Part shown: one piece after another, positions 1-13,219 of the stretch
How positions within the stretch are numbered: the first letter of the stretch is position 1
Layout: every line of letters starts with the position of its first letter
Assembly: GCA_902756345.1 (NCBI GenBank)
Contig: CACVQR010000001.1
Location: forward strand, 62,001-126,000
Direction: 5' to 3'
DNA: 64,000 nucleotides
Origin: Fibrobacter succinogenes
GTDB lineage: Bacteria; Fibrobacterota; Fibrobacteria; Fibrobacterales; Fibrobacteraceae
Position numbers and translations under genes: made by a program
Notes under the pieces: model-generated
Databases searched by the model: none
Told to the model about the DNA's origin: nothing
Seen by the model: the letters and a program-made list of their open reading frames with translations, nothing else

Positions 1-515
1 CTTCCTATCCTTATTCTTCCAGAAGGTGAGGCCGTTTCTAGCTCCTCCGGCAACGAACGCAGCCGCCATTGACGGGACCACGGGGTGACCCAGCCGTTCG
101 TCGTTGTGCGCGATGGACTGATTTGCTGAATGCAACGCAAGGCAGAGACGCTGGCCGAAGAAACGATTCCGTCCACCTCGATTCCGTCGGAACAGATTTT
201 TCCTTCGAAATGCGTCTTGGATTTGCCCTTCGGGCCATAATCGAAATGCACGACATCGCCCACGTTTAAAAGCCCCGCCTTCACAATCTCGTACAAAGCG
301 TTGCTCTTGTCCGTCGTCTTTAAGGACTCCTTTTCCTGCGTCAATTCCAAATCCGGGAAGTCGTAAAGCACCTCGCCCTTGCCGTTCATGTATTTCTCGA
401 TATGCTGAATCTGCACATCGACCTTCTGCATCGACGCCCATTCCTCAAGGTCGCTCGGGGAATAGTCTATCGGCAAAGAGACAAGTTTCCCTGTAGTTGT
501 ACACAACTTTATCAT
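1..515 (-). CDS. RAMA-domain protein, partial at window edge, probable frameshift
   Basis: Not contained in the window: translation starts at an ATG (515-513) sharing a base with the helicase stop codon (TAATG), so it is translationally coupled, and stays open to base 1. Residues about 70-140 resemble the RAMA domain (restriction enzyme and adenine methylase associated): a segment LYEIVKAGLLNVGDVV, then a beta-rich stretch, then ALRCIQQ and TNGWVT. RAMA domains are thought to read DNA or modification state. Near base 80-100 the homology changes frame: the other frame (codon at 69) encodes SMAAAFVAGGARNGLTFW, which closely matches the DUF4357 end of the GIY-YIG protein at 3246-3899. This suggests recombination with, or duplication of, the DUF4357 tail plus a frameshift. 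Only the first 170 or so residues are visible, so function and integrity are uncertain. Confidence 0.55.
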   Translation of the reverse strand, partial: MIKLCTTTGKLVSLPIDYSPSDLEEWASMQKVDVQIQHIEKYMNGKGEVLYDFPDLELTQEKESLKTTDKSNALYEIVKAGLLNVGDVVHFDYGPKGKSKTHFEGKICSDGIEVDGIVSSASVSALRCIQQISPSRTTTNGWVTPWSRQWRLRSLPEELETASPSGRIRIG

Positions 516-3226
516 TAAGAAAGATTCCTTGTAAAGGTACACTTTTGGTATTCGCGTCTATAATTACTACAGCCGATAAACATTCCATACGGACCTTTTT
601 TCTTTTCTAAATGACCGCCGCACTTGGGGCAAATCCAGCCTTCGGCCTTAATATCATTTTCGTAACGACTTGAAATTTCTTCATAGAAGCAAGATTCTTC
701 CGCAGAGTTTGAGGGAGGAACGAAAATCACTTTTTTCTTCGCCCGCGTCATTGCCACATAAAAGAGGCGTCGTTCTTCGGCATAAGGGAATTCTTCTGGA
801 TTTTCGGAAAAGAGTTTCATCACGGGAGCATCCTCAATTTTACTTGGGAAGCCTTTCCGGCCGTTTTTATTGTTCAAAATAAAAACATAATCCGCTTGCA
901 AACCTTTTGACGCATGAACTGTCATAAAGTTGATAAACAAATCCTCACGACCGGCATATTTGTATTCGCCATTTTTTCCTATCGGAACCAAATTTTTCAA
1001 ATAATTTTTCATCATCTTTTCATCATCTTTGTAACGACCAAGGAAAAGCACCTTGCTGTTTCGCGGCAATTCATTCAATCTCCACTCCCATAAACCTTTA
1101 CCTAAAACAAAGTCATTATCCTTTGATGGTGTTTTCAGTTGTTTCTTAATCTGAGACGGATTTTCCATGACAAAACTACCACTCGCCTCAATAAGTCGTT
1201 TCGGGAATCGATAGGTTGTTTCAATTTTTCCAATTTCCGTAGGCCCCCAATATTTTTCAAAATTGAGGATATAACTCACATCGCTCCCAGCAAATCGGTA
1301 AATACTTTGCCAATCATCACCAACACAGAACAACTTGTAATCCGATGAATCACGCAAAGCCTTTAGCAAGTTAAATCGAGGCTTCGATATATCCTGATAT
1401 TCATCAACTATCACAACCTTATATGGATTGGTATATTTGCCCTCACGAGCATATTGAGCAGCGTTATTAATCATATCGCTAAAATCGATATAGTTCTTTT
1501 CAGAAAGCATTTTCAAATATGCGGTATATATCGGTTCAAATAAACGCAGAATATCATCATTCTCTCGTCGTTCCAGAATACTAGCAGTTGAATAATTAAT
1601 TCGTTTTAAATCTTCAACAGAATAGACATTCGCTTTGGCTTGGGTAAGCATAGCCCCCAAAAGAGACGCGATTCTTTGAAAAACGAAATTTTTGTCATAA
1701 TCATTCTGCATACTCGCCCACATATCTTCTGCAGAACGAGGCTTGAGAATCACACCTTGATTAACAAGTCTTTTGGACAGTTCATCTAAAAGAGTATCTT
1801 CAAATTTTTCATAGGCAAAGCATTCGACAAGTTTGGTATTATGCTCTTTGTGGATTCTTCGCTTCCACCTCATTCCTTCCGAATAAAGCTGACTTGCCGT
1901 TTTTCCATTCTTACCTAAAAACGCATCAGAAACTCTACCTTGCCTATTGATTCCAAAGTATTCTATATATACGTCGTATTCAGGCAAATAAAAATCGGGC
2001 TGATACTGGCGAAACTCTTCGGTAGCTGTCGAAAAATGATACGGTCGTTCATATTCAAAAACAACCTGGTTTTGCCATAGAAAATTGGCAATATCCATTT
2101 CACCATAGCTTTTGACGGAGATTCCATTGATTGTTTTTGGGGGATTTTCCTCTATATATCTGTCATACTCCTCCACATTTTTAAAATCGTCCATACTTTT
2201 AGACTTAGATTTATTGTATAGCAAATATTCGACCAACAATTTTAAGTACTCTGGATTTTTTATTTCTTCCTTTAGTTGATCCCAAACAAATTTACTCATG
2301 TCCTGAAATACAGCCCTTTTCCCCTCCAGTTTTCCAAGAACCTTATCGTAACCTAGAGAATGGAAAGTGCATGCAGTTATCGGAACATCGATATTTTCCT
2401 TCAATTGTCGATTCATATCTGCAGCAGACTTTTTTGTAAAAGACAATATCATGATTTCTTCGGGTTTGCAAAGATTTTTCTTGAGCAAATATTTCACTTT
2501 TCCCACAATAGTCGTCGTTTTCCCGGTTCCCGCCCCAGCAATTACAAGTTGATTATGAGCATCCTTGACTACACAATCTAACTGTTGATCGTCTAACGGG
2601 AAGCCCTTTATATTTCCAATTATCTGTTTTGCCTCAACTTTCCGAACAGACAAAACATGTTCATTGTGGGATTTCATCTTCTGCGGCAAAGTATCAAGTA
2701 ACGAAAAGAACCGTTCCCATGACTTTTTATACGCACTATAACAAAAAGCCTTTGAATATTTATTTGGAGCGTGATATCGAAGCAAGTTTATATTTTCTTG
2801 ACAGTTCTTTTTCCAAGTCGAAACAGTCTCGTCAGAAACATATTCAGAAGTATTTGAAAAAATATAAAGCAAACTTGCGAGACTCTCTTCTACTTTAGAC
2901 AATAATGGATAGCATTCTTCATTTTGACGAAGGCAATCAACTTGCTCACAAACTCGATCCCATTCTTGAATAAACACGCACGCAGAAGATGAAAACAATT
3001 GAAAGCTAGGGCTTTTCCTGAGTTTTCGGATGGAAGCGCTCAAAACACCGTTATGTAATGATTCGTATTTATCACACCAAGCCTGATACGATTGCCATGA
3101 TTCACCACAAACCTTGCTTTCTGAAAGAGCATTATCAATCGATTTAATCAATGTACAGCACTCTCGCTCCCTTTCGGCAGCAAGGGTCCTACGGCGTTCG
3201 AAAAATCTTTTGATAAAGGAGAACAT
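515..3226 (-). CDS. UvrD/Rep-family superfamily 1 helicase (helicase IV-like) with C-terminal zinc ribbon
   Basis: A 903-residue SF1A DNA helicase, expected to translocate 3'-5' on single-stranded DNA using ATP. Visible motifs: Walker A GAGTGKTTT near residue 230, the Walker B/motif II variant VDEYQD near 602, a motif V-like TVHASKGLQADYV near 770 and motif VI RRLFYVAMTRAKKK near 820. Between the helicase halves (about 390-470) lies an insert with QPDFYLPEYDVYIEYFG, resembling the PD-(D/E)XK-like insertion of helicase IV relatives. The last 40 residues carry CPKCGG and a later C...C pair, a topoisomerase-type zinc ribbon. The start lies 19 bp downstream of the GIY-YIG gene, and the stop overlaps the next start, so it sits inside the six-gene operon. 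UvrD-type helicases are common in anti-phage loci; a housekeeping repair role is possible but fits the location less well. Confidence 0.85.
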   Translation of the reverse strand: MFSFIKRFFERRRTLAAERERECCTLIKSIDNALSESKVCGESWQSYQAWCDKYESLHNGVLSASIRKLRKSPSFQLFSSSACVFIQEWDRVCEQVDCLRQNEECYPLLSKVEESLASLLYIFSNTSEYVSDETVSTWKKNCQENINLLRYHAPNKYSKAFCYSAYKKSWERFFSLLDTLPQKMKSHNEHVLSVRKVEAKQIIGNIKGFPLDDQQLDCVVKDAHNQLVIAGAGTGKTTTIVGKVKYLLKKNLCKPEEIMILSFTKKSAADMNRQLKENIDVPITACTFHSLGYDKVLGKLEGKRAVFQDMSKFVWDQLKEEIKNPEYLKLLVEYLLYNKSKSKSMDDFKNVEEYDRYIEENPPKTINGISVKSYGEMDIANFLWQNQVVFEYERPYHFSTATEEFRQYQPDFYLPEYDVYIEYFGINRQGRVSDAFLGKNGKTASQLYSEGMRWKRRIHKEHNTKLVECFAYEKFEDTLLDELSKRLVNQGVILKPRSAEDMWASMQNDYDKNFVFQRIASLLGAMLTQAKANVYSVEDLKRINYSTASILERRENDDILRLFEPIYTAYLKMLSEKNYIDFSDMINNAAQYAREGKYTNPYKVVIVDEYQDISKPRFNLLKALRDSSDYKLFCVGDDWQSIYRFAGSDVSYILNFEKYWGPTEIGKIETTYRFPKRLIEASGSFVMENPSQIKKQLKTPSKDNDFVLGKGLWEWRLNELPRNSKVLFLGRYKDDEKMMKNYLKNLVPIGKNGEYKYAGREDLFINFMTVHASKGLQADYVFILNNKNGRKGFPSKIEDAPVMKLFSENPEEFPYAEERRLFYVAMTRAKKKVIFVPPSNSAEESCFYEEISSRYENDIKAEGWICPKCGGHLEKKKGPYGMFIGCSNYRREYQKCTFTRNLS

Positions 3227-3245
3227 AATTGAATAAAACGACTAA

Positions 3246-3899
3246 TTATTTAATCAAATCCTTCATAGTTTTCCCTTCTTTATTCTTCCAAAAAGAGAAT
3301 CCGCTGCGAGCACCACCCGCAACCAATGCGGCCGCCATAGAAGGAGAAGAACATTCGAGATCTTTGGAAAGTATGCCACCTTTTGACAATTTCAAGGATT
3401 CGCGGATTTTACGCCATCCCGGAGGATTAATTCCATCATAGTTTTGAGCAAGAATACTTTTGGCACACAAGATATATTTATCCCCAACCATTTTTAAGAC
3501 AGCAACAACATTTCCGTTTTTATCATTATGAAAATATTGTCCATCAAGACCTTCTTGATTCGCCATTTCAGCCTGTTCAAATGAATCTTTCTTCTCCTGC
3601 TCAGGGAAAATTTGCTTTCCCTCAAAAGAACTAAGCAAGCGAATCACCAAGTCTTTATTTAAGGCAAATAATTCGGTATTTCCAACTTGACTTTTGCTGA
3701 ATATTTCATGCAGCAAAGTTTCCTTTTCATCGTAATCATCAACTTCAATAGCAAAGCAGCGTTTTAAAGCAGCTACATTTGAATAGCCATTACTTTCTAA
3801 ATAATACATTCTGCGTTCAAATTGGTCTGAACCAGTCTTGCCAATTTTTATCAGCCCAGAAACCGCTGTAGTCATAATATAAATGATGCCTTTGGACAT
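3246..3899 (-). CDS. GIY-YIG nuclease-like protein with C-terminal DUF4357
   Basis: 217 residues. The N-terminal 90 residues fit the GIY-YIG/T5orf172 (Mug113-like) fold: a first strand GIIYIMTT, then LIKIGKTG, followed by R at about 29 (ERRMYYL) and a conserved ETLLHEIF helix with the candidate metal-binding glutamate. The end, from about 105, is a DUF4357 module (SMAAALVAGGARSGFSFW). The family cuts or binds DNA; the combination with DUF4357 is frequent in restriction-like loci. It lies 16 bp after the HD/ATPase gene and 19 bp before the helicase gene. Base composition is visibly AT-rich, like the two genes upstream and unlike most of the window, which suggests recent acquisition. The same C-terminal module recurs as a fragment at the window start. 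Confidence 0.75.
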   Translation of the reverse strand: MSKGIIYIMTTAVSGLIKIGKTGSDQFERRMYYLESNGYSNVAALKRCFAIEVDDYDEKETLLHEIFSKSQVGNTELFALNKDLVIRLLSSFEGKQIFPEQEKKDSFEQAEMANQEGLDGQYFHNDKNGNVVAVLKMVGDKYILCAKSILAQNYDGINPPGWRKIRESLKLSKGGILSKDLECSSPSMAAALVAGGARSGFSFWKNKEGKTMKDLIK

Positions 3900-3915
3900 A
3901 TAACATCTCTCTTTT

Positions 3916-6465
3916 TTATTTTTTCACCATCAAAACCATTTCGCAAATTACAATCAAATCATCACCACCACATTTTCCAATCACTCTTTGTATTATTTTT
4001 TCATCGTCAGAGCGCTCTATTTCAACATTTTCTTCTCCCCAGCACGAATTAAACGCCTTTTGAATTAATGAACAAGTCATGTTGTAAGGTTCTTTTGGAA
4101 AATTTTCATCATTATCATTAGAAATGATGCTTCTAAAACCTGAACTACAAATAAAAAGGTTGTCTAAATATTCCATTGACTCATTTCTGTTTTCTGAGGC
4201 ACGATATATCTCATCCATATCTACAACAAAGATTTCTTTCATTTGTTTTTGTTTTATTACATCAAGAACTTCATTATAATTAATGGTGTTGCCCTGATTG
4301 AACGTAATAGCAAGGCCCTTTGTATCAACACCAAATTCGCAAATATACATAGGTATATCCATACGTAAATCATCTTTTTCCCACGACTTATCAGCATCTA
4401 ATAAAACAACCTGCTCGGAAACCCATTTGGCAAAATCTTCTTCAGAAATATTTGGCATGCCAGAAGTTCTTGCCGCAACGGAACAATTACCAAAAATTAT
4501 TCCGGCAAATCCATAGGTGTTCGTTACTTTTAAACCTCCTGCAACCAAGTGTCCTTTTAAAACAGAATCCAAAAGTCCTCGACCAACACAACGTCCTTTT
4601 CCATCTTTTAAAAATGTCACCCTCTTTGCTATTTTTTCAGCATAAATGTTTATATCTACTCTTTGTGGAAGCCAATGGCACTTTCTGCAATATTTTTTTA
4701 CAAAATCAACATTTGAAATATATTTCCATTCATTTGCTTTCAATAACTCATTTCCGTTAAAAAAGACATTATAACCTATTCCACAACACAAACTAAAGAT
4801 TTGGCTTTCTAATGAAAAAATATCGTTAGAATATTTTTCTGAAGGGCACCATCTATGGTTGATTATACTTTCTTTTATCGACTCCAAATCATTTACCCAT
4901 ATTTTTATTTTTGTTCCAGATTTCTTTCTTCGCTCTGAGATTTCAGCTTTCCTCAGCAGCGGTCTTGAACTAGCGCCATAATAAAACTCAAGAATTCTTG
5001 TATCAGCAACACTATCTCCTGACCGAAGTGTAGTAACAGAAACCTTTTCTCCCCACATGAAAACAGAGAAAAAGCCTATTCCAAAATGCCCTGTTGAACA
5101 AAAATCTGTTGACTCTAAGCTAGGAATTTCCTTACGCATCAATTCTGACCCCCAAAAAGATGAGCCAAAATCGAGAAATGGTCCCGTCAGGACTTTTTGT
5201 GACATTCCTATTCCATTGTCTTCAACTTCGATGAAACTACCATTTTCGTCAGAATTAAAGCGAATGTCTATTCGTCCTTCACTTTCTTCCATTTCACCTA
5301 ATTTACATTTCGCTTGTATTGCATCGGATGCATTTTGAATGAGCTCTCTTAATGGAATTATCGATGTATTCCCATACAGAGCCTTACCACCCAAAGAATT
5401 TATTAGACCAGATACATTTGACACTCGTATTTTAGAATCAATAGGAAGCCATCCCTCCGTTTTTATTGATTTTGATAAGGATTCTGGAGAATCAATGTTT
5501 TTCACACAAAAAACGCCTAATGAATTGATTCCTCTATTAGTAAAAAGCGAATCAACAGCCAAAAGTTCCTGATTAATCATTTTTAAAATGTCATAACATA
5601 ACCACCAGCTCTCTCGTTCGCCAACAGAAAAAGAGGAAGAATTAAATTCTAGTCTATGATTTTCTGCTATAGGTTTTCTCAATTTTGAATGAAAAGTCCA
5701 ATGTTGTTTAGAATAATCACTCAATTTTTTCGAAGCCATAAGTATTAATGGGGCTCTATTAGAATATATGTGAATAGCATCAGCAATTCTTAGAATACCT
5801 GCTAATTTTATGACATCAATAGTCCACTCTGCAGGCATGGAACCCAATGCTCCAATTTTTTTAGTAGGGAAAATAGAATCAATTTCATTTATTGAAATTC
5901 CATGACTATATGCAATTTGCCCAATTATTTCTCCATAACCTACTCTTAACTCATCATCTTTAATAACATAAACGCGGTTCGAGTCCTTATCGAAAGCATG
6001 GAAAGGTAGTTTTTGAGCATTTTCAGGATGTTTTTGCCTCAAAGTTTCTAAATCGGCTTTATTTTTTGCTTCCTCAATTTCGAAGCCATTCTTTGTGTAA
6101 TGAGCAAAAGAATCCTTCCATATGACATCACTTTCAAGAGTCGTCCTATTACCATAAGCGATATAACTCATTCCTAGATCATGAAATAAAAAAGAACAAC
6201 CAAGAACAAACCCTTCTGCAGGATTTAATTCAATTGATGACTGACTGAGAATTATATCAGCAGTTCCCCAAAGTTCATCAATATGAGAAATATCATGAAG
6301 AGTATATTCAGAGAATATACTTGATATTCCATTGGCTAAGAACTCAACATTTTTACGAATACTTTCGTATTCATTCCTCAAAGTGTCAATATTATCTTTA
6401 TAAGAACCATCTTCTTTCCCAAGAGTTTGTTTCCACAATTTTGATTCATGATAATTAAAAGACAT
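3916..6465 (-). CDS. HD-domain plus Hsp90-type (HATPase_c) ATPase protein
   Basis: 849 residues with two recognisable parts. Residues about 45-240 look like an HD phosphohydrolase fold: HDISHIDEL near 57, LFHDLGMSY near 92 and a late RIADAIHIYSNRAP helix. Residues about 360-530 form a GHKL (Hsp90/MutL/histidine-kinase) ATPase: N-box LRELIQNASDAIQ, G1 box VEDNGIGMS and G2 box GHFGIGFFSVFMW. There is no kinase dimerisation domain, so this is not a sensor kinase. The C-terminal 300 residues are unassigned. An HD fold joined to an Hsp90-like ATPase suggests ATP-gated nucleotide or nucleic-acid hydrolysis, but that is inference. The gene is AT-rich and lies 50 bp after the MBL-fold gene and 16 bp before the GIY-YIG gene in the same operon. 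I do not know a named defence family with exactly this neighbour set. Confidence 0.75.
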   Translation of the reverse strand: MSFNYHESKLWKQTLGKEDGSYKDNIDTLRNEYESIRKNVEFLANGISSIFSEYTLHDISHIDELWGTADIILSQSSIELNPAEGFVLGCSFLFHDLGMSYIAYGNRTTLESDVIWKDSFAHYTKNGFEIEEAKNKADLETLRQKHPENAQKLPFHAFDKDSNRVYVIKDDELRVGYGEIIGQIAYSHGISINEIDSIFPTKKIGALGSMPAEWTIDVIKLAGILRIADAIHIYSNRAPLILMASKKLSDYSKQHWTFHSKLRKPIAENHRLEFNSSSFSVGERESWWLCYDILKMINQELLAVDSLFTNRGINSLGVFCVKNIDSPESLSKSIKTEGWLPIDSKIRVSNVSGLINSLGGKALYGNTSIIPLRELIQNASDAIQAKCKLGEMEESEGRIDIRFNSDENGSFIEVEDNGIGMSQKVLTGPFLDFGSSFWGSELMRKEIPSLESTDFCSTGHFGIGFFSVFMWGEKVSVTTLRSGDSVADTRILEFYYGASSRPLLRKAEISERRKKSGTKIKIWVNDLESIKESIINHRWCPSEKYSNDIFSLESQIFSLCCGIGYNVFFNGNELLKANEWKYISNVDFVKKYCRKCHWLPQRVDINIYAEKIAKRVTFLKDGKGRCVGRGLLDSVLKGHLVAGGLKVTNTYGFAGIIFGNCSVAARTSGMPNISEEDFAKWVSEQVVLLDADKSWEKDDLRMDIPMYICEFGVDTKGLAITFNQGNTINYNEVLDVIKQKQMKEIFVVDMDEIYRASENRNESMEYLDNLFICSSGFRSIISNDNDENFPKEPYNMTCSLIQKAFNSCWGEENVEIERSDDEKIIQRVIGKCGGDDLIVICEMVLMVKK

Positions 6466-6515
6466 AAAAATTAACCTCTCTTCATCATTAAAATTTCAAA
6501 AAAAATTTTTTTCAT

Positions 6516-7703
6516 TTATAAAGTAATCCTCTTCTTTGGGGAAACTATATTATATCCATGATTAGGATATATCCATTTGGAACTGGAATAATTCCAATCA
6601 GTACAAATAATGTCATTTGCATAATTGGGTGGGGTTTGTTGAGTCAGCAATTGGCAATACCTTACATCAGGGCCATCATAATTGTATGGCGATGGACCGC
6701 ACGAATGCACAATCTTTGATGCGGTACAATTACTTTTAGGCATCTTCGCACCGAATCGTGAACCATGATGAGCAGATTTCATCAATTTGAATTTCTGATT
6801 AACAAGATGTTTCATCGCTATTTTACCAATAGGGCCAGAATGCAAATCACTAAAAAATAGAGCTTCCTCATCTATTTTAAAAACAATGCTATGGTCATCA
6901 ATATTTCTTTGCATTTTTAATCGACAAAAGTTAGAAAAAAGACGAAGAATAAGATAATCTACATTTTCTAAATCAAATGGTTCAATTTGATTCAACTCTT
7001 CCATTATTGAAGGTAATAAATTTGGCGGATTTTCATGTTTTCCATCAGTATAAATAGACGACAAAATATCATATATTTTTTTAAACCGTTTTTCAAAAAT
7101 ATTTCGTTGAGAATCATTTAAAAATTCATTCATAAAAACATCTAAAAAATTGAAATATAAATCAATTACTCCATCAATATTCCGAGATCCACTTATATAG
7201 TAACAACGAGGAGGCCAAAGAATCTTCTCTTGATAATTTTTATGTGGCAACAAGGCATTTTCTTCAACCCCTAAAAGCCACTTAGATAAATCAGCCATTA
7301 ATGGAGCCATCTTTATCCAATCAATTATTTTTTGATTTGTTGTCCGACGTGTTGGAAAAATATAAAGATGTAGAAGTCCTAATCGCAAATAAAACGCATG
7401 CAAGCTTTTTATTGTTGAAAAGTCAAGCCAAGGAATATAGGATATGCTAAAAAATTTTTTTGCGTTTAATCTCGTGAGCATATACTCAAAACCAGAATAA
7501 TGATCTAAATGCGGATGAGTCAGCATAGCCTCTAGCGAATAATCCCCACAATTTTTTTGAAATTTTACTAAAAAAGAAGCCAATTTTTGAACATACTTCT
7601 GTGAAGTTGGCGAAAGAGTCCCAAAATCTCTAACAAGTCCTCTATCACCAAAATCAATAAATATAGCGTCACCATGTTGAACATTAAAAAATGTCGTTTT
7701 CAA
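6516..7703 (-). CDS. ComEC/Rec2-like metallo-beta-lactamase-fold hydrolase (stand-alone)
   Basis: 395 residues, no signal peptide and no membrane segments, hence cytosolic. The fold is shown by FFNVQHGDAIFIDFG at the N terminus, the zinc-binding motif THPHLDHYSG near residue 62, FSDLHSG near 283 and SAHHGSRFG near 307. The nearest relatives by pattern are the MBL domains of ComEC-type proteins, which hydrolyse nucleic acids or phosphodiesters. A central region (about 110-260) without obvious motifs separates the two halves. It starts 27 bp after the stop of the restriction-modification gene and precedes the HD/ATPase gene by 50 bp. It has strongly AT-rich codon use. Stand-alone ComEC-like MBL proteins beside ATPases recur in accessory loci, so an effector nuclease role is plausible but unproven. 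Confidence 0.75.
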   Translation of the reverse strand: MKTTFFNVQHGDAIFIDFGDRGLVRDFGTLSPTSQKYVQKLASFLVKFQKNCGDYSLEAMLTHPHLDHYSGFEYMLTRLNAKKFFSISYIPWLDFSTIKSLHAFYLRLGLLHLYIFPTRRTTNQKIIDWIKMAPLMADLSKWLLGVEENALLPHKNYQEKILWPPRCYYISGSRNIDGVIDLYFNFLDVFMNEFLNDSQRNIFEKRFKKIYDILSSIYTDGKHENPPNLLPSIMEELNQIEPFDLENVDYLILRLFSNFCRLKMQRNIDDHSIVFKIDEEALFFSDLHSGPIGKIAMKHLVNQKFKLMKSAHHGSRFGAKMPKSNCTASKIVHSCGPSPYNYDGPDVRYCQLLTQQTPPNYANDIICTDWNYSSSKWIYPNHGYNIVSPKKRITL

Positions 7704-7730
7704 AACATGCTCTCCTAAAAAGATGATTCT

Positions 7731-10700
7731 TCACCTTTTCTCCACGGCTTCAATCTCCTCGGTATCGGTGATGCCATAGAGTTGATAGACGAGGGTGTTG
7801 ACTTGCGTTTCGAGGTCGGCGATTCGCGTTTGAATCGCTTCGGACGGTCCTTCGGCAGGCTCAGGAACCTGAGTTTTGTTGCTGTTCACCAATTCCTTTT
7901 TCAGGCGAATAATTTCGTCAGCGAGGGTGGCGAGTTTTTGCAGTAGTTCCGCATTGTCTAGGGGGATGCGGAGGTTTTCGAAGTAGGCTTTGCGGATTTC
8001 ACGAGTGCCGCCCATGAGTTCGGGGCAGTTGTACCATATCCAGAGTTTGACGAGGTTCGAATTGAATATGGCGAGGAGGGCTTTTAGTAGGTTATAGCCA
8101 CAGGGAGAGGAGATTCCCGCCTTCGCGGGAATGACATCGCTGGTTGTTTCTGCATTGGATTGCTTCGCTTCGCTCGCAATGACGTTTTCCGTTCCCTTTG
8201 GCAAATTCTGCGAATTGTCCTTTTCCGTAATGATAAAAGATTTGTCGTTGCCGAAAGAGCCGGTTTCGTCGTAGGTGAACGGGAATACCGATGTCATGTT
8301 CGGGTACATGATTTTCGGTTTGGCAAATTCTTCCAAATAGGCGCAATTACGCAAATTATATGGCGTATCGCCTTTGTCTCCACGTTTAATCAATTTATCT
8401 ATAAATTGGTCAAGATGCCTTTTGATTGCAGGGTATTCGTCTATGTTAATCGGCGCAATGTTCTTTTCTTTAATTCCGTTATGCGGATTGATTAGATACT
8501 GATCGCTTTCCGTTACCCATGCGTTAATATCTCGGCCACGAAGCAGGGGCTTTATGAGTTCTTCGCTCTTGGGGTCTTCGGCAATGAGTTTTTCTCTCGT
8601 CTTTCCGTCAATAAAGAATGCGTCGTTGAAGCCGGTTTTGATGCCGTAATTAATTGTAATCGGCATATCTTTCAGAGGCGTGCCGACGTTCATTTTCTGC
8701 AATACGGAATCGTGGAGTTTGTTGCGGATGCTCCATTCGCTTGCTCCGAAATTTTCTGTCGGGAACTCGAATGTCGCAGCCTTGACTTCTTTTTCAAATT
8801 CACCGTGATAGTTCTTGCTGTTCAGCGAGCACGCCAAAACAGGCATCTTGTCGCCGGACTTTTGCGATACGAATATGCACACGTAAATGGTCGCATCAGC
8901 AAAGAATTGGACATCGCCAAAATTGAGAATTTTCTTGAGTGAGGTCTGGCTCATGAATTGTCGCAGTTCCTTGCCGTAATCCACGAGCATCCACTTGTTC
9001 GGCATGATGAACGAGAAATATCCGTTCTTTTTCAGCAGGCTGTAGGCACGTTCCACAAAGAGGCAATAAAGGTCTGCGGACTTGTTGTAGCAACTGTAAT
9101 CCCGTTTGCTGTAAACGTCACTCATCTCGCCCATGCTCTGGAGTTGCACATACGGCGGGTTTCCGATGATGGCGTCGAAGCCTGTAAAGCGGCCTTCGTC
9201 GTCGAGGATTTCCGGGAATTCGAACATCCATTCGAGCGAATTGGAAAAGTTGATGGTATCGCCCGCCGTGCCCTTGTATTCCTCGAACATTTCAATCTGC
9301 CCGTCTTCAACCATTCGGCTCTTGAGCGACGCAATCTTGTGCCGGAGCATCATCTTGGAACTCTGCGACTTGCCAGTTTTGTATTCCTGCACAAGTTGTC
9401 TGTATTCAATAAGGCTATTCTTGAGGCTATCCCGTTTGCGGTCGGCTCGTTCATCACGAGTAAGATAGTCCGCAATCAAGCGCCCGTTCTGCACGGGGTA
9501 TTTGCTCAGCAGCGAATCGCCGACTTTGATATTGATGTCGATGTTCGGGAGGGTCTGAAGTTGTTTGTAGCCGCTTTCCTTGGTGTAGTAGGCGTTCTTC
9601 AAAAGTTCAATCCAAAGACGCAAACGGCAGATGTTCACGCTGTTGGGGTTCAGGTCAACGCCAAAAAGGCAATTCTCGATAATGCGGCGTTTTTCGTTGA
9701 ACAAAGCTTCTTGATACCGCTGGCTTTCTTCGTTGCCGGGCTTGTATTCAAACGGTTCGCCCTCGTCATCAACAACAGAAAGTTCATCGTTATCTACTTT
9801 CAAAATCAGGTCGCGGCGTTTGATGCGTTTGCCGTCCGCATCGCACAAAATGTTCAATTCCGATTTGATTGCAAGCAGGCGATTAAGGGCCGACACCAAG
9901 AAATGCCCAGAGCCCACGGCAACATCGGCAACGCGGATGTCATCTACAATTTGATTCGCTTCTGAAATATCTTCAATCTTGTCCGAGACATCTTCCAAAT
10001 TTTCGCATTTCCAGGACTTTTTCTCGTTGAACTTCTGCACCACCGTCCGTTCCAGCACATCGCGAGCCATGTAGTCGGTGATGAACCCCGGTGTAAAGAA
10101 ACTGCCGTCTTTGTAGCCGTTGATTTTTTCGAAAATGAGTCCGAGAACCGACGCGTTGATGAGCGTCTTGCTCGTAGAGGTCACGCCGCCTTGGGCATCG
10201 CTTGCAAAGTTGTACGCATCGAGGAACTTGAAGATGTAATCCAGATTCGGGAGCGTGCCTTTTGCGCGTTTGCCGCGTTCGTCCTTCAGAACAGTCTTGT
10301 TGAAAATTTCAAGATCATTGTCCAAGAGATTCCCGATCATCAGTTTCGATTCATCTTCCGTGGGTTCGAAAAGAGAGCTGTTCAGATAGGGAACATTCGG
10401 ATATTTAGCTTTTACATCTGCGTCACGGTCATCAACCTTTTTCCCAAGAACTTTAAAAAAGAAAATATTGAGTTCATCAAAACCCTTAATTTTGTCCGAA
10501 CTCATGAACCGGTAGGATGCATCACCCTTTTGATACATGAGGATCTGAGATTCTACCAACTTAAGAAATAATAGGCGATTTATCCATGTGATACAGAGGC
10601 GAAGTGCGGTTTCTTCACATTTATTTTCATCGGGTTCCTTGATTTCTAACTGATAAATAGCACTTTCAAGGAGGCTTCCCTTGTCGCGATTTGCGGGCTT

Positions 10701-11636
10701 CTTTCGTTGAATGACTTTCTTTCCGCCTTTGTCTTCTTTTACTTCTTCGAGGCCGATGATGTGCAAAAGTTCCGCATAAAAGTTGCGGTCGAGACTGTTG
10801 CTGTCGTTTGCGAAAGGCTTCGCGAGGAGGGTTTCCGGGGAGAGGAATTTGTAAAGAGGGAGGAGCGGTGTGGAATGTGAAATGTGGGATGTAGAATATG
10901 CATTGTCATTCTGGAAGCCTGCAGGACTGATAGAATCCATGGACCCTATCGCCTTCGGCTCCAGGGTGACATGTGACTTTTTTAGTTCTGGGGCAAGCGT
11001 CCGCATTGCATCTGCAAGGCTGAAATGCACGACGTTGATATCGCAGGAGGCGAGGAAGTCGTCAATGGCGGGTTTCGCGATTTCGTTGTAGAAATCGGAT
11101 GTCTTATTGCCGCTCATCTGATTCGCCTTGAATTTCAAGAACTGATCGTATATCGGTTTCGTCTTGTTCCCAAAATAGCGAATAAAGTCTTTTACGTCAA
11201 AGAAGTACCATTCGTCAAAATTCGTGATGGCGAGCCACTTGATTTCGTGATTGCCCGAATGCACGTATTCCAGCATAAAGTAATAGACGAGTTCCTGCAA
11301 CGATTTTACGTTCGGATGCTCCGCCGAAAACATTTCTGCCGCATTCGTCGGCGACTTCGCTTCGATAATCACTGCCGGCTTTGCACTTGCCGTGTTCCCG
11401 TTAAAAATTGCAAGGTCTATCGGGCGGTTGACCTGCACCGAATAATCGGGTTCAAAAATCTTGCGTAAAAAGTTCCAGATTTCGCCCTTGTGGTATTCTT
11501 CGTCCTGTGCTACATTCCGCTTGCAGTAAAGATTCTTGAGCGAAAGCTTGAAATCCTCCATCTTTTCGACGGGAACAGGGAGCTTGAAAAACGCGGAATT
11601 GACGGACTTTTTAGGCGAAATGAACTTGATTGACAT
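7731..11636 (-). CDS. Type IIG restriction-modification enzyme (Eco57I-like N6-adenine methylase with nuclease domain)
   Basis: About 1301 residues using the ATG at 11636 (MSIKFISPKK); the open frame extends 78 codons further up but that part is repeat-derived sequence. N terminus: a PD-(D/E)XK-like nuclease core RPIDLAIF then VIIEAKSPT at about 73-97. Middle: SAM-binding motif AVGSGHF near 570 and catalytic NPPY near 827, the signature of N6-adenine methylases. C terminus: a TaqI/Eco57I-like specificity region and a terminal coiled coil. One polypeptide should therefore both methylate and cleave DNA. It heads the minus-strand operon, 27 bp before the MBL gene. Oddity: three different dispersed repeats are present inside the frame (around residues 221-244, 1150-1176 and 1251-1262), adding short peptides such as VTLEPKAIGS, VIPAKAGIS and VPEPAEGPSEA without breaking it. 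Confidence 0.85.
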   Translation of the reverse strand: MSIKFISPKKSVNSAFFKLPVPVEKMEDFKLSLKNLYCKRNVAQDEEYHKGEIWNFLRKIFEPDYSVQVNRPIDLAIFNGNTASAKPAVIIEAKSPTNAAEMFSAEHPNVKSLQELVYYFMLEYVHSGNHEIKWLAITNFDEWYFFDVKDFIRYFGNKTKPIYDQFLKFKANQMSGNKTSDFYNEIAKPAIDDFLASCDINVVHFSLADAMRTLAPELKKSHVTLEPKAIGSMDSISPAGFQNDNAYSTSHISHSTPLLPLYKFLSPETLLAKPFANDSNSLDRNFYAELLHIIGLEEVKEDKGGKKVIQRKKPANRDKGSLLESAIYQLEIKEPDENKCEETALRLCITWINRLLFLKLVESQILMYQKGDASYRFMSSDKIKGFDELNIFFFKVLGKKVDDRDADVKAKYPNVPYLNSSLFEPTEDESKLMIGNLLDNDLEIFNKTVLKDERGKRAKGTLPNLDYIFKFLDAYNFASDAQGGVTSTSKTLINASVLGLIFEKINGYKDGSFFTPGFITDYMARDVLERTVVQKFNEKKSWKCENLEDVSDKIEDISEANQIVDDIRVADVAVGSGHFLVSALNRLLAIKSELNILCDADGKRIKRRDLILKVDNDELSVVDDEGEPFEYKPGNEESQRYQEALFNEKRRIIENCLFGVDLNPNSVNICRLRLWIELLKNAYYTKESGYKQLQTLPNIDINIKVGDSLLSKYPVQNGRLIADYLTRDERADRKRDSLKNSLIEYRQLVQEYKTGKSQSSKMMLRHKIASLKSRMVEDGQIEMFEEYKGTAGDTINFSNSLEWMFEFPEILDDEGRFTGFDAIIGNPPYVQLQSMGEMSDVYSKRDYSCYNKSADLYCLFVERAYSLLKKNGYFSFIMPNKWMLVDYGKELRQFMSQTSLKKILNFGDVQFFADATIYVCIFVSQKSGDKMPVLACSLNSKNYHGEFEKEVKAATFEFPTENFGASEWSIRNKLHDSVLQKMNVGTPLKDMPITINYGIKTGFNDAFFIDGKTREKLIAEDPKSEELIKPLLRGRDINAWVTESDQYLINPHNGIKEKNIAPINIDEYPAIKRHLDQFIDKLIKRGDKGDTPYNLRNCAYLEEFAKPKIMYPNMTSVFPFTYDETGSFGNDKSFIITEKDNSQNLPKGTENVIASEAKQSNAETTSDVIPAKAGISSPCGYNLLKALLAIFNSNLVKLWIWYNCPELMGGTREIRKAYFENLRIPLDNAELLQKLATLADEIIRLKKELVNSNKTQVPEPAEGPSEAIQTRIADLETQVNTLVYQLYGITDTEEIEAVEKR
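7851..7881 (-). repeat. PEPAEG-type dispersed repeat inside the RM gene
   Basis: GGTTCCTGAGCCTGCCGAAG on the minus strand, translated in frame as VPEPAEG. This short palindromic sequence (CCTGAGCCTGCCGAAGG) is of the kind scattered through intergenic regions of several Bacteroidota-related genomes; here it lies in the region encoding the C-terminal linker. Confidence 0.6.
8109..8184 (-). repeat. Composite REP-like repeat inside the RM gene
   Basis: Two adjacent palindromic units: GTCATTGCGAGCGAAGCGAA (8165-8184) and GTCATTCCCGCGAAGGCGGG (8116-8135). Both belong to repeat classes that are widespread in bacterial intergenic DNA and translate to peptides such as ASEAKQS and VIPAKAGIS. Here they sit in frame in the C-terminal specificity region of the RM enzyme. 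Confidence 0.7.
10904..10972 (-). repeat. Imperfect inverted-repeat element inside the RM gene
   Basis: Bounded by TGTCATTCTGGA and TCCAGGGTGACA, nearly inverted copies of each other, with GACCCTATCGCCTTCGGCTC near the right end. The same right half (about 35 bp) recurs at 11771-11806 upstream of the gene. It is read in frame and contributes the peptide HVTLEPKAIGS between the nuclease and methylase domains. Confidence 0.7.
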
Positions 11637-11860
11637 ACAACGGAAATATACCTTTTTAGAAGACAAAAGATGGCAATCCCATAGTTTTAAGGGCAAATCC
11701 CGTTTTTGTGAGGCATTTCCCGTCGGGGCGTTGCGGGGTGTCCCCGCTAGAAGGGGTAGCGAAAGACTTGCCCTGGACCCTATCGCCTTTGGCTCCAGGG
11801 TGACATAAGGGCAAGGCTGTAGCGAGGGGGAAACCTCCCCCTCAAAAAAAACGCGCGGAC
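11637..11860. other. Intergenic region upstream of the RM operon
   Basis: No gene of its own. It holds a half-copy of the dispersed repeat (CCCTGGACCC to CCAGGGTGACAT at 11771-11806) and a G/C-rich dyad at 11824-11843 (GAGGGGG...CCCCCTC). A TATATT hexamer (minus strand) lies within 20 bp of the RM start, too close for a normal leader, so the RM promoter is not confidently located. Confidence 0.5.
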
Positions 11861-11863
11861 CTA

Positions 11864-11892
11864 TTGACAAACTGGATTTTTGAATCTATATT
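11864..11892 (+). promoter_or_regulatory. Sigma70-type promoter of the ORF6N gene
   Basis: TTGACA at 11864-11869, a 17-bp spacer, and TATATT at 11887-11892, about 60 bp upstream of the ATG at 11952. The -35 box and spacing match the consensus, and the -10 differs at one base. Confidence 0.75.
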
Positions 11893-11951
11893 TAGTGCAC
11901 AAGTGTGTAGTCTTTGGTATTTTTTCCGCTTGTATGCCAGAGGAGTTGACG

Positions 11952-12567
11952 ATGAAGAAAGATGTTGCGGCCAGTGCGGCCGAGGCTGTTGCGCCGAAAA
12001 AGCCCGAATTTTCCCTGATAGACGAGGATTTGCTCAAGTCACGGATATATACCATCCGCGGGGTAAAGGTCATGCTCGATGCCGATTTGGCGGAAATTTA
12101 CGGGTATTCGACCAAGGCTTTCAATCAGCAGGTCAAGAATAATATCGAGCGTTTTGCGGAGGATTTCCGTTTCCAACTGTCCAAAAAGGAAGTTGAAGAA
12201 TTGCGGTCAAAAAATTTGACCGCAATTACCAGTGTAAATGACGCAGAAATTTTGCGGTGCAAAAATTGCACCACAAACATTAGCACAATGAGCCGCTCCA
12301 ATCCCTTCGTTTTTACAGAACAGGGCATTTATATGCTTATGACTGTGTTGAAAGGCGATTTGGCAGTACAACAGAGTATGGCCCTCATCCGTCTTTTCAA
12401 GCAGATGAAGGACTACATTGCGGCAGAGAACGCGCCGGATGTTTCTGCGGGGATGGTCGCCTTGGCGACGCAACGATGCCGGCAACAAGATCACGACCAT
12501 CATGCAACTGGAGGATATCGCCGGGTATCGCACACTGTTCGAAAGGTTGTTGCGAGAGGGGGAATAA
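11952..12567 (+). pseudogene. ORF6N-domain (KilA-N-type) DNA-binding protein, frameshifted near its end
   Basis: ATG at 11952 is preceded by AGGAG at 11940-11944 and the promoter at 11864-11892. Residues about 20-115 form an ORF6N domain: IYTIRGVKVMLDADLAEIYG, then a long conserved stretch ending MSRSNPFVFTEQGIYML. This domain occurs in phage and mobile-element regulators and binds DNA. After about 12470 the frame changes quality: the original frame runs on into codons antisense to the DUF1349 gene, whereas another frame gives RNDAGNKITTIMQLEDIAGY and a stop at 12565-12567. That shorter ending looks like a genuine C terminus, so one indel near 12,470 has probably damaged the gene. The DNA-binding part is intact and may still work. 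Confidence 0.65.
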
Positions 12568-12613
12568 GGGCGCGCATCCATACACTACCCAAGGGGGCAT
12601 TTTCGAATTACGT

Positions 12614-13219
12614 TTACGCATCCGGTTGTTGGCCGTCGTGCGCTTTCCATGCGCATTCCGTCACCTGCATATCCGTAAATCGAGCCGTGAAGCTGGAATT
12701 TTCCGGGCTGCATGCATATATGCCAAACCGAATTTTTCCGGCTCCTTCGAGCATGTGGCAAATCCGCATTTGAGAATACTGCACCCCGTCTCGAGAACAT
12801 TCTATGCAGTAGTCATCTTCGCGCCTGCTGAGCCTATACCACATGGATTTTACATCTGCAGGAATCGCAGTCGTCGCCCAGTCTGAATACCCGCGGTTTG
12901 TCACGACGGAACCCAGGTGCTGGAATTTTTCATTCTCATATTCGACCGACGCCTTGAGCCAATTTTCCGAATCCAGATACAGCGCCACCCCGCACTGGTC
13001 GAAGCGATGACGACTTTCGGAAAAATCGGTTTTGGCGACAAAGGAAAAGAACTTTTCTTCTGCTTCCATCTGCAGAACCGGAGCGTTATCGTTTCTGAAA
13101 TGATAGTAGGTCCTTTGCCAAAGGTCCGTATGCGGGGCGGTCACAATTTCGACGCATTCTTGATTGATGCTGTAGTTCCGGGGTTCCCTGACCCATTTCA
13201 TTTTAGAAATATCAAACAT
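12614..13219 (-). CDS. DUF1349 family protein (concanavalin-like fold)
   Basis: 201 residues, no signal peptide. The pattern fits DUF1349: WVREP near the N terminus, the TDLWQRTYYHF segment, FDQCGVALYLDSENWLKASVEYE in the middle and a MWYRLSRREDDYCIE strand pair. The family has a lectin/glucanase-like beta sandwich and is sometimes labelled regulation of enolase 1, with no firm biochemical role. It is convergent with the ORF6N gene. The start could also be the MKW codon at 13201. No partner gene is evident, so it is probably monocistronic. Confidence 0.75.
   Translation of the reverse strand: MFDISKMKWVREPRNYSINQECVEIVTAPHTDLWQRTYYHFRNDNAPVLQMEAEEKFFSFVAKTDFSESRHRFDQCGVALYLDSENWLKASVEYENEKFQHLGSVVTNRGYSDWATTAIPADVKSMWYRLSRREDDYCIECSRDGVQYSQMRICHMLEGAGKIRFGIYACSPENSSFTARFTDMQVTECAWKAHDGQQPDA

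Follow-up and report, generated by a model that had tools for sequence, protein, structure and literature searches.

The window analysed here is a 64,000-nucleotide stretch of Fibrobacter succinogenes DNA (contig C1:62001-126000, within the 3.36 Mb genome designated G000). On the minus strand of its positions 1-11870 it carries six adjoining frames, which a preliminary description had read as one six-gene defence operon. The frames and their junctions are as reported there, with gaps of 27, 50, 16 and 19 nt leading from the Type IIG gene through the metallo-beta-lactamase-fold (MBL), HD/Hsp90 and GIY-YIG genes to the UvrD gene, and with a TAATG overlap at the join of the UvrD and RAMA frames. 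The features of the locus are as follows.

7731..11636, minus strand: predicted Type IIG restriction-modification enzyme, proposed hotspot leader (1301 aa; Pfam and PADLOC)
6516..7703, minus strand: cargo 1, MBL protein, an orphan (395 aa; motifs)
3916..6465, minus strand: cargo 2, HD-CE domain fused to an Hsp90-like GHKL ATPase (849 aa; Pfam and structure model)
3246..3899, minus strand: cargo 3, GIY-YIG (T5orf172) protein with C-terminal DUF4357, PDC-S57 (217 aa; PADLOC and Pfam)
515..3226, minus strand: cargo 4, UvrD-type SF1 helicase with an inserted PD-(D/E)XK-like domain and a C4 zinc finger (903 aa; Pfam and conservation)
1..484, minus strand: far-side anchor remnant, RAMA plus DUF4357 (alignment to intact copies; runs a few bases beyond the window edge)
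11880..12773, plus strand: ORF6N-domain gene, divergent from the Type IIG gene (ORF6N 112 bits)

All four cargo frames are intact in G000. They are AT-rich, as had been noted, with GC contents of 0.32 for MBL, 0.34 for HD/Hsp90 and 0.38 for both GIY-YIG and UvrD, compared with 0.47 for the Type IIG gene and for the window, and the lateral transfer proposed for these middle genes holds up. The MBL and HD/Hsp90 genes have the two lowest values among the cargo. Family searches agree with the earlier motif reading for the Type IIG gene, HD-CE plus HATPase, T5orf172/GIY-YIG plus DUF4357, UvrD plus zinc ribbon, and RAMA, and the Pfam and PADLOC matches likewise bear out that the parts are of defence type. 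The genomes compared below under G-numbers carry no annotation; their ORF calls, cargo boundaries and counts of gene direction come from our own scripts, and the cargo ends were set by eye.

Anchor and cargo proteins

The leader protein is predicted from its domain content to be a Type IIG restriction enzyme. It contains DUF7149, DUF7814, an Eco57I-type methylase and a TaqI_C specificity domain (Pfam 260, 215 and 145 bits), and its translation includes an NPPY motif. The Eco57I methylase match of 145 bits and the PADLOC IIG match of 818 bits place an N6-adenine methylase and a nuclease region in one chain. Alignment with relatives sets the start at the conserved ATG at 11636, which is also the end coordinate given in the preliminary description; the stop is at 7731. 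Upstream flanks are unlike between some genomes, so the gene does not sit at one site in all species. Among four plasmid relatives inspected outside Fibrobacter no comparable array was found, and a copy on an Enterococcus plasmid has one small gene behind it. Relatives of the ORF6N gene adjoin the Type IIG gene at most loci. In the window the ORF6N gene (11880-12773) differs from its relatives in the C-terminal part, which continues into sequence antisense to the neighbouring gene; a deletion has probably truncated the ORF6N gene. Two copies of a 36-nt repeat (94% alike) lie at 10937-10972, within the Type IIG coding sequence, and at 11771-11806, a short way upstream of the start codon. In-frame stretches that resemble repeats (e.g. 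VIPAKAGISSP), also at about 8100-8500, interrupt the protein at points of difference from relatives. These are interspersed repeats inserted into the coding sequence.

At the other end of the locus, the six frames exist as described, and five of them stand as genes. The RAMA frame, which is open from 515 leftward, is a damaged remnant and was rejected as a sixth working gene. Intact anchors with both RAMA and DUF4357 are 392-439 aa long in G070, G077 and G128 and 423 aa long in G088. In G000 homology to the anchor begins only at 484, inside the anchor gene and right behind the end of UvrD, leaving the N-terminal part missing. Between its RAMA and DUF4357 parts the remnant also lacks about 337 nt, with a frame shift near position 80; because of this internal deletion the DUF4357 part lies in another frame. 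The RAMA match in G000 is 25 bits, below the Pfam cutoff of 35. Alignment shows the same internal loss in the anchors of G098 and G126. Beyond the remnant and to the left of the window lies an AlbA-like ATP-binding gene (L007 16665-17830) disrupted by a frameshift, followed at some distance by a DinD-like gene.

The MBL protein carries HPHLDH-63, SDLH-285 and HHGS-312, the ComEC-type signature that had been recognized earlier, and has no significant Pfam match. Its assignment to LmuA or 6A-MBL was rejected, the former being a partial match (1e-5, best stretch residues 1-81 only) and the latter falling below the cutoff (14.6 bits against 220). No relatives of this protein were found in the 168 genomes of the phylum, in plasmids or in viral contigs. 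The GIY-YIG protein, with Pfam matches to T5orf172 (32 bits) and DUF4357 (42 bits), matches PADLOC's single-gene candidate PDC-S57 nearly end to end (1.4e-82, residues 1-215 of 217 to model positions 1-224 of 229). The statement that no named system has the full gene set holds; the GIY-YIG gene by itself matches a catalogued candidate. No relatives of it were detected in viral contigs. Its C-terminal 115-120 residues share 41% identity with the corresponding stretch of the anchor protein, which means that the DUF4357 module recurs in the slot, and we speculate that such recurring repeats may seed the exchange of cargo. The cargo of G070 (L071 17051-17161) and of G102 (L079 744-854) also holds brief additional copies of the anchor 3' end; these are 92-95% alike at the protein level, fall outside long ORFs and look like traces of earlier exchanges.

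The UvrD protein matches UvrD-helicase (152 bits) and Zn_ribbon_Top1 (39 bits) in Pfam. Its inserted PD-(D/E)XK-like domain is marked by E376, D411 of the PD411 motif, and E422, residues that at least 90% of 20 sequences share. The protein also has a C4 zinc finger and is presumably a helicase-nuclease. Although it shares a UvrD-type helicase core with Gabija GajB and DNA helicase IV, it differs from both in its inserted nuclease-like domain and zinc finger, and no GajA lies beside it. GajB was rejected, as the match is limited to the helicase core, and so was DNA helicase IV (355 bits against a cutoff of 543). No OLD/GajA-type gene is present among the window genes scanned.

Variable cargo behind the Type IIG stop codon

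The proposal of one six-gene defence system is not supported by the distribution of its genes. A search with each of the five proteins across 168 whole genomes of the phylum placed IIG in 24, UvrD in 18, HD/Hsp90 in three, and MBL and full-length GIY-YIG in one each; the MBL and full-length GIY-YIG proteins occur in G000 only, and five more genomes match the C-terminal half of GIY-YIG. The thorough searches covered genomes of this one phylum, plasmids and viral contigs, and a wider scan of bacterial contigs by short peptide patterns yielded only four HD/Hsp90 relatives. The 16 other HD/Hsp90 loci come from Roseburia, Akkermansia, Zymomonas, Nonomuraea, one further bacterium, two Fibrobacter genomes and nine viral contigs, and none of them (0/16) has MBL, GIY-YIG, UvrD or IIG as a neighbour. 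Nowhere among the loci examined in other genomes do two of the four middle genes stand together, and the MBL/HD-Hsp90/GIY-YIG/UvrD set is absent as a unit from the other genomes searched in the phylum and from the 16 other HD/Hsp90 loci. Because the homologous genes are scattered rather than clustered in the genomes and loci covered, an outcome that the preliminary description had itself named as a refutation, a single conserved operon was rejected.

Alignments of G000 with 14 other genomes (15 loci) reveal that homology ends at the Type IIG stop codon and that different genes follow. In 14 genomes all 88 of the 88 cargo ORFs are oriented with the Type IIG gene. Between the stop and the first cargo gene lie 0-88 nt in 13 of 14 loci and 601 nt in the remaining one, and cargo GC is 0.28-0.37 compared with 0.44-0.48 for the Type IIG gene. 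The far-side anchor, whole or as a piece, is present at seven of the 14. The clearest pair is G000 and G098, whose left flanks are 94% identical over 1.1 kb and right flanks 98% identical over 0.66 kb; since both flanks are common, the chromosomal site is the same, and the two have no common cargo. The same pattern, shared flank and different cargo, is found at 13 further Type IIG loci.

The cargo in relatives is enriched in known defence systems, among them Thoeris, Lamassu, SIR2-HerA, GmrSD and PDC families. For example, G098 carries Thoeris ThsA with several ThsB genes, G118 a ThsB-type gene, and G144 genes similar to Thoeris by eye; G126 has Lamassu LmuA/LmuB with PDC-M62, G070 has PDC-S06, GmrSD and a DdmD-like helicase, G131 has PDC-S06, G097 has SIR2-HerA, G080 has PDC-S49, G067 has PDC-M62A with a Dsr2-like protein, G113 an AbiH-like protein and G077 a PLD nuclease. 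These sequence comparisons suggest that the region is very probably a chromosomal defence hotspot of Fibrobacter relatives and not one system, the four-gene set being its local filling. Two further observations concern genes in these slots. A cargo gene of G080 (L078 1-711), in the same slot as PDC-S49, appears by eye to encode a caspase-like peptidase with a YSGHG motif. In the slots of G070 and G102 (L071, L079), a gene for a 1162-aa DdmD-like helicase is followed by a 741-aa gene without known family.

The hotspot is a previously known kind of locus, and its exchange site in Fibrobacter is newly mapped. The cDHS1 and cDHS2 loci of Pseudomonas aeruginosa are core defence hotspots whose cargo is rich in known and unknown defence genes (PMC10250203), and the Fibrobacter slot resembles them in its fixed flanking genes and variable low-GC cargo. 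It differs from them in that one flank, the Type IIG gene, is itself a defence gene and in that the cargo all runs in one direction and begins right behind the Type IIG stop codon; it is seen in tens of genomes, whereas cDHS1/cDHS2 are seen in thousands.

The HD-CE/Hsp90 protein

The second cargo protein matches HD-CE (PF24391) with 164.5 bits against a cutoff of 27 and HATPase_c_3 with 33 bits. Among 13 sequences the HD residues H57, H61, H95-D96, H188 and D229 are invariant, and so are the GHKL motifs E374, N378, D416-G418-G420 and G459-G462-G464. A first structure model built from five sequences had a pLDDT of 61; with phage relatives added it reached a pLDDT of 79.6 and a pTM of 0.73, and in this form it aligns with Hsp90/TRAP1 across about 490 columns with 14-16% identity. 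The protein thus resembles HtpG, Hsp90 and TRAP1 in its GHKL motifs and in the match of the model to their N-terminal and middle regions, but it has an added N-terminal HD domain, and its identity as an HtpG chaperone was rejected (66 bits against an equivalog cutoff of 371). No model in PADLOC 2.0 represents it, and we found no paper in the literature on the terms HD-CE, PDC-S57 or 6A-MBL themselves. In fusing a GHKL ATPase to an effector-type domain within one defence protein, the GHKL-Shedu protein VcSduA (PMC12137116) is comparable; however, the partner in the HD/Hsp90 protein is an N-terminal HD domain and not a C-terminal PD-(D/E)XK nuclease, and its ATPase part is Hsp90-like.

The relatives of this protein include lone cargo genes of temperate phages. 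In five viral contigs (L094, L096, L097, L100 and L101) the HD/Hsp90 gene lies directly behind a CI-type repressor gene, and in L095 it is one small frame away from such a repressor, with an integrase on the other side; P2-type gpA and CII genes occur in several of these HD/Hsp90 contigs. A defence hotspot between cI and the integrase of P2-related phages has been described by Rousset et al. (PMC9122126), in a paper that does not name HD/Hsp90 or GHKL. The phage HD/Hsp90 relatives occupy the slot beside the CI repressor, although the copy in our window is chromosomal. Downstream of the HD/Hsp90 relative on a Zymomonas plasmid is a TIR-NLR gene. Because of the phage slot beside CI, the defence hotspot described for P2-related phages and the TIR-NLR gene near the Zymomonas relative, the HD/Hsp90 protein is likely a self-contained candidate defence protein. 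We further propose, tentatively, that HD-CE/Hsp90 proteins may form an uncatalogued single-protein phage-defence family that moves alone as phage and chromosomal hotspot cargo, in which a chaperone-like ATPase clamp would sense a phage-made ligand or client and switch an HD phosphohydrolase attacking nucleotides or nucleic acid. From the architecture of the protein we suggest, somewhat more tentatively, that infection is sensed by the Hsp90 part, which in turn would gate the HD part.

Competing readings and meaning of the locus

The cargo could still be read as one rare four- or six-gene system, with the Hsp90-type ATPase as infection sensor and the MBL, GIY-YIG and helicase-nuclease proteins as the effectors that it licenses. 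The tight one-strand spacing, the common low GC and the defence type of every part would fit it. We nevertheless consider this reading very improbable, because no other examined genome has two of the four genes together, HD/Hsp90 stands alone or with other neighbours at 16 other loci, UvrD relatives stand alone or adjoin GmrSD or OLD-type genes, and even unrelated cargo genes in this slot are as a rule packed closely and in one direction. A smaller unit, with the MBL protein as effector under the control of the ATPase and with GIY-YIG and UvrD as unrelated cargo, is unlikely, though less so. The two genes are adjacent with a gap of 50 nt and have the lowest GC of the cargo, and a different defence-type gene, the TIR-NLR gene, is found downstream of the Zymomonas plasmid relative; but no neighbouring frame with an HxHxDH (MBL) motif was found near 15 other HD/Hsp90 loci, and the phage HD/Hsp90 protein is found by itself, with HD catalytic residues of its own.

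The cargo might instead serve general DNA repair or mobile-element housekeeping, its genes having come by drift into a permissive site where they now decay. In favour of this, roles in repair and DNA uptake are also known for UvrD-type helicases and MBL proteins, and on the far side the RAMA anchor and the AlbA-like gene are both frameshifted. Such non-defence cargo appears slightly less probable than the MBL-HD/Hsp90 pair. Against it, relatives carry known defence systems in the same slot, none of the four cargo frames is broken, HD/Hsp90 relatives lie in a described phage defence slot, and the GIY-YIG protein matches a defence candidate model over its full length. The explanation that we favour with considerable confidence is a hotspot with a Type IIG leader and exchangeable cargo, filled in G000 by four independently mobile genes. 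Two points bear on its last part: the tight spacing and shared AT-richness of the four genes also fit a block that arrived together, and the MBL protein is an orphan, so a test of its partners by relatives has G000 as its single case. For the hotspot reading itself, the far-side anchor at only seven of 14 loci and the unlike upstream flanks of some genomes count against it.

In this arrangement the conserved Type IIG gene is the leader, and foreign AT-rich defence-type genes come after its stop in the same direction; at about half of the loci the conserved RAMA-DUF4357 gene, complete or in part, closes the far side. Homologous recombination within the anchor gene on either side would swap the cargo, and read-through from the Type IIG promoter would transcribe it. 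The Type IIG enzyme would methylate self and cut foreign DNA, the UvrD protein would unwind and cut DNA, and the GIY-YIG protein would nick or cut it. The HD/Hsp90 protein may be a self-contained switch in which, on sensing infection, ATP-driven closure of the Hsp90 part controls the HD phosphohydrolase, and the MBL protein may be a separate hydrolase, possibly a nuclease.

A mapped exchange site thus replaces the supposed new six-gene system. The Fibrobacter genes behind the Type IIG stop codon provide a ready list of defence candidates, several of them without a PADLOC name. Among the genes of the locus HD-CE/Hsp90 is the one most worth following, as a self-contained candidate in both the chromosomal slot and a phage slot known for defence genes.
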